DNA of 64,000 nucleotides from contig NZ_CP114280.1 of NCBI RefSeq assembly GCF_029635795.1, positions 2,852,001 to 2,916,000 of the forward strand, read 5' to 3'. Numbering within the stretch: position 1 is the stretch's first letter; every line of letters begins with the position of its first letter. The translations under genes were made by a program, and so were the position numbers. This DNA comes from Dickeya lacustris (GTDB taxonomy: Bacteria > Pseudomonadota > Gammaproteobacteria > Enterobacterales > Enterobacteriaceae). Below, piece by piece: positions 1 to 27,843 of the stretch. Below the pieces are notes generated by a model that was not told where the DNA came from, ran no database searches, and was given only the letters and a program-made list of their open reading frames with translations.

Positions 1-51
1 TTTATGACCGGCCCGGCAACGCATGTCTATGACGGATTTATTCACCTATGA
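1..51 (+). CDS. dapF: Diaminopimelate epimerase, C-terminal end (partial)
   Basis: Only the last 16 codons and the stop are present. The frame from base 1 reads [16 protein letters not shown] and then TGA at 49-51, which matches the conserved C-terminus of DapF, the lysine and peptidoglycan precursor epimerase. The stop overlaps the next start as ATGA, as in the enterobacterial dapF-DUF484-xerC-yigB operon. The rest of the gene lies upstream of the window. Confidence 0.88.
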   Translation, partial: FMTGPATHVYDGFIHL

Positions 52-23572: not shown

Positions 23573-23596
23573 CTGTGCTACAGCGCAGGCCAACAG

Positions 23597-23623
23597 AAGC
23601 AGGGAGGTTTCCCTGCTTTTTTT
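23597..23623 (+). terminator. Intrinsic terminator of glpABC
   Basis: aagcaggga and tccctgctt pair around a four-base ggtt loop and run into a string of seven T. It is placed about 25 bases after glpC. Confidence 0.88.
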
Positions 23624-23743
23624 ATGGCGCGTCTTCACGAGAGCGAATGCCGTAACGCATTGATGATGAATAGGTAATCAGCAGGCCACGGTCTTTTCCG
23701 ATAAGGGCTTGCCACTTTTCCTGATATTGAGCAAAAAAAGTGC

Positions 23744-23774
23744 TTTACAGATGCAAATGATAATGATTATTATT
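23744..23774 (+). promoter_or_regulatory. Fur box over the ryhB promoter
   Basis: The 19-mer aatgataatgattattatt (23756-23774) is a near-palindrome matching the Fur consensus. A promoter overlaps it: TTTACA at 23744-23749, an 18-base spacer and TATTAT at 23768-23773, predicting a start at G23780. This is the arrangement expected for iron-repressed ryhB. Confidence 0.88.
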
Positions 23775-23779
23775 GCCAT

Positions 23780-23902
23780 GCGTTCCGGGAAAACCTGATG
23801 AATCCCTCCTTGTGACTCATGCGGTTTGACTGTGAAGGCACGACATTGCTCACATTGCTTCCAGTATTACTTTAGCCAGCTCGGGTGCTGGCTTATTTTT
23901 TT
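23780..23902 (+). ncRNA. ryhB: Iron-responsive small RNA RyhB
   Basis: The core gcacgacattgctcacattg, followed by cttccagtattac, is almost identical to E. coli RyhB, the Hfq-dependent sRNA that represses iron-using proteins when iron is scarce. The terminator follows: arms agccagc and gctggct (23874-23893) and then a T-run to about 23902. The core begins at 23838, about 58 bases from the predicted start, against roughly 32 in E. coli, so the 5' arm appears some 25 bases longer. Location next to yhhW and the gnt genes agrees with E. coli. The 5' end is inferred from the promoter. Confidence 0.93.
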
Positions 23903-23940
23903 GCGTCGTATTTTTTGGAATCTGGTTTCCTATTGTTCCC

Positions 23941-23980
23941 TGTTCCTGTTCCTGTTCCTGTTCCTGTTCCTGTTCCTGTT
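23941..23980 (+). repeat. TGTTCC hexanucleotide array
   Basis: Six perfect TGTTCC units and a partial seventh (tgtt) run from 23941 to 23980; one earlier imperfect unit (tgttccc) starts at 23934. The array sits between the ryhB terminator and yhhW. Copy changes would alter spacing, not reading frame. Confidence 0.95.
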
Positions 23981-25000: not shown

Positions 25001-25744
25001 CTATGAATTTTTACGCTCACCCTTATCGTATAATTGTTCGTGCCAATAACTCTTGAAAGCCTGTCCATAGATTTTCATCGCCAAAGGGTGGTCACGAGGT
25101 GTGATATTGGCGAGATGGTTTGTCGTAATATCCGCGCCGATATCAATCGTTCTGGCATAGTTGCTTCGATTAAAAGTGATACCGAAGTCAAGATCTTCGG
25201 CTTCAAAGAGTGCTATTTGTGCATCCGCCAGTTTGTCGGCCTGTTCGACCAGTTCTTTTGATGAGTTAAGCGCCCGATCTATGCGTGTAATCTGTTCCTC
25301 TGTCAGCCCCTCCTGTTGTGTTACCACCAGCCTTCCGTACTGGCTCACGCTAAAGCCAAACGATGTATCTTTTAAATCTGGATTATTTTTGACAAATTTA
25401 TCGATAAAAGATAAGTAAGTTTGAAAAATTTGTGTTGATATCGCCTGCTCGATTTTCGATGCTTCATCGATTCTTTTCCATTTTGCAGTGAGTATCTCCA
25501 TAAAATCGTTATGCAGTTGCTCTTGAGTTATAGTTACTGGTTTAGATATCAGGTCTCCTGTCTTTCTTTCTGAATTATACTTCTTAAAGGCTTCGGCGCT
25601 GATTTCTACAATCTGTCGCTCGGTTTTGACTTCACTTGTGGTGGTGGAACCATCTGTAGCCTGCTGTTGAGCTGAAACGTTTGCATTCAGTTTCAAGTCT
25701 GAAACGGCCATCGAGAGTGAGCCGAGCGTAGGAATACTGTTCAT
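25001..25744 (-). CDS. Unrecognised 247-residue protein
   Basis: I do not recognise this protein. It is hydrophilic, has no signal peptide or membrane segment and looks largely helical. The N-terminus is Ser/Thr/Gln-rich (VSAQQQATDGSTTTSEVKTE, about residues 23-42), followed by VEISAEAFKKYNSERK. The middle is amphipathic (EASKIEQAISTQIFQTYLSF). Its ATG overlaps the stop of the preceding small secreted-protein frame as ATGA, so the two form a coupled unit. GC is visibly lower than in the neighbours, suggesting acquisition from outside. A partner or immunity function for the secreted product is possible but unproven. Confidence 0.65.
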   Translation of the reverse strand: MNSIPTLGSLSMAVSDLKLNANVSAQQQATDGSTTTSEVKTERQIVEISAEAFKKYNSERKTGDLISKPVTITQEQLHNDFMEILTAKWKRIDEASKIEQAISTQIFQTYLSFIDKFVKNNPDLKDTSFGFSVSQYGRLVVTQQEGLTEEQITRIDRALNSSKELVEQADKLADAQIALFEAEDLDFGITFNRSNYARTIDIGADITTNHLANITPRDHPLAMKIYGQAFKSYWHEQLYDKGERKNS

Positions 25745-26167
25745 ACCATTTTCTCCTGTATGCCTGTATGTGATAACCGCACGCTACGTACCAGCGTGTG
25801 TGTGGCAATAGACCTAGGCTCAGGCGTGGTGTATTGGCAATCTTTTCCTCCCGAACCGATATCTTTCTGCGTTGGGATGCCAATACACCATGCACCAAAA
25901 TCAAAGGTAGTGTTACATGAATGAATATAGCCACAATCATAATCTTTGAACGCTGTGCTACAGTCTGCGTTGCCGTACTTTGAGTACGGAGGTGCGGATT
26001 GAATCACGATAACGCCATCTTTTTTATTTTTAGTTAAAAACGCCTTTGATGGGACGTTTTTCAAGACCTTTTGCCTCAGCGGAAACACGGGTTTCCACCC
26101 TCGCAGAACCGAGAATAAATGCCAATGACGCTGCGATAAAATCTACGCTAAATCGATGCCGATTCAT
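25741..26167 (-). pseudogene. Small secreted Cys-rich protein, frameshifted
   Basis: An ATG at 26167 opens a 45-codon frame with a signal-like N-terminus (MNRHRFSVDFIAASLAFILG) that stops at 26030. From about 26088 the next frame continues and ends at 25741 with five Cys (ADCSTAFKDYDCGYIHSC, AWC and KDCQ). Removing one base between about 26088 and 26030, for example from the A5 or T5 runs, joins them into 141 residues. The fused reading is inferred. The sequence is not recognised. The stop overlaps the downstream gene start (ATGA). No good ribosome site precedes 26167. Confidence 0.5.
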
Positions 26168-26843: not shown

Positions 26844-27843
26844 ATGATCAAGAAAAAAAGACCGGTGTTGCAGGATGTTGCAGACCGGGTGGGCGTGACC
26901 AAAATGACGGTCAGCCGCTATTTGCGTAACCCCGAGCAGGTTTCTGTGGCCTTGCGGGGCAAGCTTGCCGCCGTACTTGATGAGTTAGGGTATATCCCGA
27001 ATCGAACGCCGCATATTCTCGCTAATTCCACCAGCCGGGCGATTGGCGTGCTGTTGCCGTCATTGACGAACCAGGTGTTTGCCGAGGTGCTGCGCGGTAT
27101 TGAAAAAGTGGCGGAAGCGCAGGGATATCAAACCATGCTGGCCCATTACGGTTATCAACCGGAGGTGGAAGAGCAGCGCTTGATGTCACTGCTGGCTTAC
27201 AACATTGATGGATTGATTTTGGCTGAACGTACCCACACTGACCGCACCCGGCAGATGATTGCCGTTGCCGGTATTCCGGTGGTGGAACTGATGGATTCGG
27301 TATCGCCTTGTCTGGATATGGCCGTCGGGTTTGATAATGTCGCAGCGGCTTACCAGATGACGCACTACATGCTTGAGCGTGGCCGCCGACGGGTGGATGT
27401 ACCTTGGCGCGCGTCAGGATGAACGCACGCTGCAAAAACAGCGTGGTTATCAGCAGGCGATGACGGATGCCGGGCTGCCCTGCTACAGCGTCATGAGTGA
27501 AAACCCGTCATCCTATACGTTGGGTGGTGAATTGTTGCGGCGAGCACAGCTTGAGTACCCTGAGCTCGATAGCCTGTTTTGCACCAACGATGATCTGGCG
27601 ATCGGGGCGATGTTTGAATGCCAGCGTCAGGGGATTCGGGTGCCGGAGCAGATGGGGATTGCCGGTTTTCACGGTCATGACATCGGCCAGACCACCGTGC
27701 CGCGCCTCACCAGTGTGCTGACGCCGCGTAAGCGCATCGGCGAGATAGGGGCAACACAACTGTTGGCGCGGCTGCATGGCGAAATCCTGCCGACGACCCA
27801 TGTCGATGTCGGCTTTGTGCTACAGAACGGTGAAAGCGTTTAG
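26844..27843 (+). pseudogene. gntR: Gluconate operon repressor GntR, single-base frameshift
   Basis: A LacI-family repressor of the gluconate genes. The N-terminal helix-turn-helix is clear (VLQDVADRVGVTKMTVSRYL, about residues 8-27). The frame runs with the sugar-binding domain to MLERGRRRVDV and then stops at 27422. From about 27400 the next frame continues collinearly with GntR (YLGARQDERTLQKQRGYQQA to VGFVLQNGESV) and stops at 27843. One extra base near 27394-27401 accounts for this; corrected length is 332 residues against 331 in E. coli. If real, the gluconate genes would be derepressed. The tail overlaps gntK by four bases. Confidence 0.9.

Follow-up and report, generated by a model that had tools for sequence, protein, structure and literature searches.

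Does the ryhB locus of Dickeya lacustris encode a RyhB with a new 5′ arm, or a familiar RyhB in a longer form? An initial annotation of a 64-kb stretch of DNA (64,000 nucleotides, hereafter the window) had placed here a RyhB with a Fur box, and had suggested that the added bases in front of its core could carry extra targets or adopt a different fold. Our analysis indicates that the RNA is a standard RyhB with a longer SL1 (the 5′ hairpin of RyhB), and the suggested novelty was not borne out.

Identity and neighbourhood of the locus

The RyhB call was confirmed by a covariance search. RF00057 matches positions 23834–23900 of the forward strand over the full model (1–67), with 88 bits against a gathering score of 55 (E = 2.4e-15). 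This is the single Rfam match above the cut-off in the window, and the genome itself holds one RyhB match at E ≤ 0.001. RyhB was found in all nine genomes of the genus. The features of the locus, all on the forward strand, are as follows.

23744–23773 (+): sigma-70 promoter, −35 TTTACA (23744–23749) and −10 TATTAT (23768–23773); aligns with the E. coli ryhB promoter
23753–23777 (+): two overlapping 19-bp putative Fur boxes (23753–23771 and 23759–23777), lying over the −10; matches to a consensus
23780–23839 (+): predicted SL1, made of the 5′ arm (23780–23837) and closed by predicted pairing of G23780–C23781 with G23838–C23839; from folding and conservation
23803–23816 (+): apical part of SL1, where the arm is least conserved (8 of 14 columns invariant), containing CCUCCUU
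23838–23873 (+): RyhB core, seed GCACGACAUUGCUCACAUUGC and A/U-rich stretch; from the RF00057 alignment, with a single variable column out of 36 in the genus
23874–23902 (+): intrinsic terminator, hairpin (23874–23893) and U run; from the RF00057 alignment, a scan of the sequence and folding

The seed is unchanged. E. coli RyhB (RF00057; NC_000913.3:3580922–3581016) resembles the present one in its core, its terminator, the Fur box over the −10, the promoter spacing, a 5′ hairpin SL1 that ends in GAA and the presence of yhhW nearby. It differs in the length of the SL1 arm and in the genes beside it. In a separate observation, the RyhB core of Ca. Symbiopectobacterium (L054:2832) reads GCACGACATTGCTTCCAG and lacks nine bases between two ATTGC repeats, possibly a sign of decay in a symbiont.

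The gene neighbourhood had been described as preserved, which holds in part. The pirin gene yhhW lies downstream, nearby and on the same side as in E. coli, but yhhX and yhhY are not beside ryhB, and the upstream gene is glpC-like (iron-sulfur and CCG domains), so that the locus reads glpC–ryhB–yhhW. E. coli carries yhhX between ryhB and yhhW and has yhhY flanking ryhB on the opposite side. When 20 loci were searched with simple motifs, glpC and yhhW were found flanking ryhB in eight of the nine genus loci (the ninth, L036, has glpC only) and also in L038 (g126), L005 and L006 (g8), L167 (g213) and L032 (g132). L168 has glpC only, MG1655 has yhhW only (1338 nt away) and L163, L165, L002 and L017 have neither. 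The locus is the ortholog of E. coli ryhB and the sole RyhB gene found in the genome.

Several other elements lie around the gene. A palindrome, GGAATCTGGTTTCC, occupies 23917–23930, some 15 nt beyond the ryhB U run. All nine genus loci, as well as L038 and L165, have a version of it at nearly the same place, within a spacer that is otherwise poorly conserved, and it is absent from L005, L006, L167, L168 and the listed loci L053–L084. It may serve yhhW as an operator or act as a back-up terminator. Between ryhB and yhhW lies a tandem repeat of the hexanucleotide TGTTCC (7.7 copies, 23934–23980); in the alignment the other eight loci of the genus have no such array there. Further downstream, a gntR-like repressor (26844–27843) consists of two overlapping open reading frames (ORFs) in different frames, the one encoding a LacI helix-turn-helix and the first part of the sugar-binding domain and the other the last part, which indicates either a frameshifted gene or a sequencing error. 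Between yhhW and gntR, two adjoining ORFs of 247 and 115 amino acids on the reverse strand (25001–26088) gave no Pfam match, no NCBIfam match near the cut-off and weak PHROGs matches.

Promoter, Fur boxes and predicted start

The promoter-like site has an 18-nt spacer and 10 of 12 consensus matches. A promoter scan found one such site against a mean of 0.9 in shuffled sequences, so that the site alone is weak proof. The −10, the 6-nt discriminator and the first G all align with E. coli ryhB, and this homology is the stronger argument. The start was placed by a simple rule, the seventh base after the −10 hexamer, which on MG1655 returns the annotated 5′ end of ryhB and on the window returns G23780. 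The earlier prediction of a start at 23780 thus has the support of both the rule and the aligned promoter.

The Fur box proposed over the promoter likewise stands as a predicted site. Against GATAATGATAATCATTATC, which we take to be the Fur consensus, the top match scores 16 of 19, and the four highest-scoring matches in the window (14–16 of 19) are the two listed sites, each on both strands. The two copies are offset by six bases. Among 2000 mononucleotide shuffles of 23573–23837 none scored 16, the highest score being 15, and the corresponding promoter stretch of E. coli ryhB gives similar values (16 and 14 of 19).

Length and conservation of the 5′ arm

The arm from 23780 to 23837 comprises 58 nt before GCACGAC, compared with 33 in MG1655. 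The claim that the core begins 25 bases later than in E. coli is therefore exact, and the predicted RNA is about 121 nt long; the RefSeq length of E. coli ryhB is 95 nt. Arm length is 57–59 nt in all nine members of the genus. Mean pairwise identity among these nine loci is highest in the core (98.9%) and the terminator (97.5%), followed by the promoter (96.5%) and the arm (92.4%), whereas the flanking stretches outside promoter and terminator reach only 53.7–57.5%. Within the arm, the hairpin strands are 95% identical and the apical loop 85%. The long 5′ end is a trait of the genus, as seen in the nine genomes examined, and not an oddity of this genome.

These values bear on a rival placement of the 5′ end, in which transcription would start near 23805, the RNA would be about 95 nt long as in E. 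coli and 23780–23804 would be spacer. The 5′ end at 23780 is indeed a predicted one, but the E. coli-type promoter points to 23780, and no −10 is visible for a start at 23805, because no hexamer beginning at 23785–23799 matches TATAAT at more than three of six places. The supposed spacer is also nearly as conserved as the promoter (94.9% for 23780–23802, against 96.5%). Because the arm is conserved from its first base, it fits transcription from 23780, and we consider a start near 23805 very improbable. As for published evidence, RNAs under 200 nt were discarded in a start-site map of D. dadantii, and the main text of that paper does not name ryhB (PMC9239193).

A 5′ pattern, TGCGTTCCGGGAAA, was also tried as a marker and rejected. 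It matches eight of 198 family genomes, four of them (G000, G395, G412 and G502) at ryhB, and is not specific, because the other four matched genomes are hit away from any listed ryhB place.

Among relatives, arm lengths range from 30 to 112 nt. When the 64 genera with arms that start in GC are counted, nine have arms of at least 50 nt and the genus median is 35; longer arms are thus not rare, and six genera exceed that of the window. The long arms by genus are as follows.

g8, g213, g204 and g223: 75–112 nt
g126 and g216: 60 nt
g159: 59 nt
genus of the window: 57–59 nt
g132: 56 nt

The arm table holds 118 rows, of which 29 without a GC start were excluded from the 64-genus counts. It samples part of the further RyhB places (20 further copies and 40 taken high score first, mostly one per genus). 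Nine loci with a core match but without a recognisable −10 were dropped (L143, L147, L148, L150, L152, L153, L174, L177 and L217), although L177 also gave a usable row. The openly accessible literature on the 5′ part of RyhB, on SL1 and on Dickeya RyhB, mostly at the level of titles and abstracts, yielded no description of SL1 length variation; we do not claim that it is unpublished.

The arm is predicted to fold as SL1

Folded alone, the arm forms one hairpin at −16.2 kcal/mol (z −2.33), a stability matched by 5 of 200 shuffles. The same hairpin appears in the fold of the whole RNA, where its two 5′-most bases are paired with the leading GC of GCACGAC (z −1.94; 6 of 200 shuffles as good) and the first 27 bases of the core have a mean unpaired probability of 0.71. 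An alignment of ten sequences (nine distinct), namely the nine genus members and G412, was used to examine these pairs. In it, 98% of the 252 SL1 and terminator cells pair, against 36–45% after the partner has been slid over one to three columns, although the structure was derived from the same sequences and is therefore favoured over the slid versions. A genus-level shuffle control on this alignment was uninformative (500 of 500). No SL1 pair in this alignment changes on both sides within the genus, so that the support for SL1 inside the genus is conservation and not covariation.

Wider comparison adds pairs that change on both sides. The base of SL1, UUC…GAA, is common to most relatives, and the arm sequences otherwise differ widely between genera. 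Among the 64 genera with GC-start arms (one arm each), the UUC:GAA pairs form in 186 of 192 cells, against 36–128 when slid, and change on both sides in g6, g22 and g130 (for example, C–G to U–A). Six of the 64, including the Escherichia-like g21, have one non-pairing cell; in E. coli the first of the three base pairs is A–A. This three-pair count is the fairer one, because the choice of GC-start arms fixes the 5′ side of two pairs. With 79 genera, GC start or not, the three pairs form in 200 of 237 cells (51–146 slid), and over all 84 arms, non-GC starts included, the base fits less well (337 of 420 cells, 96–219 slid). For 77 of these 84 distinct arms the fold is better than the average for shuffles of that arm (mean z −1.46; 52 below −1). 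In minimum-energy folds of whole RNAs, SL1 is lost to other pairings in some cases, such as L008, L010, L024, L032 and the Escherichia-like L017.

Taken as models, these folds indicate that the arm folds on itself as the SL1 of RyhB, with base and stem kept and with loop and length drifting between lineages. The proposal of a different fold is not supported, as the extra stretch appears to lengthen SL1 on its widely shared base. The front end would be 25 bases longer because a known structural hairpin is longer.

Additional functions considered for the arm

The most concrete form of the extra-target proposal is that a second seed, AUCCCUCCUU, becomes exposed in the loop of the longer SL1 and would pair with ribosome-binding sites of further mRNAs. 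This sequence resembles what we take to be the anti-Shine–Dalgarno end of 16S rRNA, and CCUCCUU does sit in the apical part of the hairpin. Searching the genome with the complement of the loop gave eight non-self sites against five for a control pattern, and one of the eight (L253) lies just before the start of a 422-amino-acid ORF. This excess is slight, and some of it was to be anticipated, since the complement includes a Shine–Dalgarno sequence. None of the eight sites reads as an iron gene on inspection. Moreover, conservation within the arm is lowest in the loop, whose sequence is different in sister genera. On these small tests extra targets find no support, and we regard a second loop seed as quite unlikely.

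The arm might instead be translated. A small ORF within it (ATGAATCCCTCCTTGTGA, encoding MNPSL) reads MNPSL or MNPVL with a stop in seven of the nine genus members, some with synonymous changes; its stop is lost in G399, it is frame-shifted in G396 and sister genera have other frames. The RNA could also make RyhP, a peptide reported for enterohaemorrhagic E. coli (MAHIASSIT, ATT start, in E. coli O157:H7; PMC5331693). The RyhP frame is likewise closed in seven of nine genus members, but in the window and in G399 it stays open, with no stop after MAHIASSIT, so that no closed nonapeptide is found there. Neither the arm ORF nor the RyhP frame is retained in the branch to which the window belongs. 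Among the 118 rows, 14 have the exact sequence in closed form, and 46 have a closed nine-residue peptide whose last residues may be any. We give a peptide, from either frame, almost no credence. Like the second loop seed and the start near 23805, it was tested in a small way, and all three are unlikely.

Predicted targets of the core

In the genome, a search with the complement of the seed gave 171 sites at up to three mismatches, against 96 for the reversed pattern. Among the matches listed, which are part of the 171 and do not include the exact site in ryhB itself, fourteen have at most two mismatches, and two of these 14 lie at the starts of genes that read, from their proteins, as formate dehydrogenase-like.

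One of the two is conserved. The sequence TGAGTGATGTCGTGC (G000:C1:1312765–1312779; L224) pairs with the RyhB core over 15 positions, two G–U pairs being allowed, and begins 26–27 nt before the ATG of an fdoG/fdnG-like gene. It is unchanged in eight of the nine genus genomes (also L263, L264 and L266–L270), and bases further upstream vary; an exact match is absent in the genus member G400. The protein starts MQVSRRQFFKICAGG, and a tblastn search with its first 40 residues against a plasmid collection returned a gene annotated fdnG (87.5%, best of 54 records). E. coli fdoG has been cited as a RyhB target on the basis of Ribo-seq and is also a target of SdhX (PMC6393394), so that the 15-nt block need not exist for RyhB alone.

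The other predicted site, GAGCAATGTCATG (G000:C1:4169143–4169157; L233), covers what is probably the start of an fdhF-like gene, and its sequence is similar to that at the start of E. coli sodB (GTAGCAATGTCATT). A search with E. coli SodB did not find sodB, the best-known RyhB target, in this genome; its sole superoxide dismutase match is 49% identical and SodA-like.

G000:C1:2707131–2707742 (L262): SodA-like superoxide dismutase gene, found with the E. coli SodB query

Discussion

We are highly confident that this locus encodes a standard iron-starvation RyhB, a putatively Fur-repressed RNA of about 121 nt whose extra 25 nt lengthen SL1. Iron-loaded Fur would repress the gene and leave it when iron is short. 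A transcript starting at G23780 and ending in the U run at about 23900 would then be made, and its core, together with Hfq, would pair with the leaders of mRNAs for iron-using proteins and shut them down. The extra 25 nt would form no free arm and would instead lengthen SL1, the 5′ hairpin that E. coli RyhB needs stably folded.

Work on E. coli gives an outline of what such a hairpin may do. A stable SL1 was reported to be needed for both targets tested, and in a mutational scan changes in bases 1–35 acted alike on a repressed and an activated target (r = 0.92; PMC4231740). The same study describes the action of SL1 as mainly target-independent, its effect as mostly not exerted through RNA abundance, and A30G at the base of SL1 as affecting sodB more strongly than folding explains (PMC4231740). 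The most economical reading is that the longer hairpin would do the same job as E. coli SL1. A different reading treats SL1 as an expansion segment of 30–112 nt on a fixed base and supposes that the long form of the soft-rot bacteria has gained a job of its own, such as ProQ or RNase III binding or loop pairing, that changes the lifetime or targets of RyhB; we consider this improbable.

Other long RyhBs are on record. Published lengths are 108 and 109 nt for RyhB1 and RyhB2 of Y. enterocolitica (PMC10342277), 110 and 108 nt for the RyhBs of Y. pestis (PMC3770706) and 106 nt for RyhB2 of P. atrosepticum (PMC4710047). By this measure the Yersinia RNAs and Pectobacterium RyhB2 (106–110 nt) are, like the present one, longer than that of E. 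coli. They are described as paralogues, whereas here one copy was found, with a slightly greater predicted length. Salmonella RfrA and RfrB are by description also diverged at their 5′ ends, but are two paralogues in one genome. A review proposes that the diverged 5′ ends of the Salmonella paralogues may help to give them distinct targets, and that those of the Yersinia RyhBs may play a part in activity or stability (PMC4211561).

Because the RF00057 model covers the core and terminator only (67 positions), SL1 and its variation in length escape annotation with it. At the sequence level the longer 5′ end is conserved, and the best reading is an extended form of a known structural module, not a new arm. 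Should the long SL1 prove to have its own function, RyhB would offer a good example of a regulatory RNA gaining a domain.
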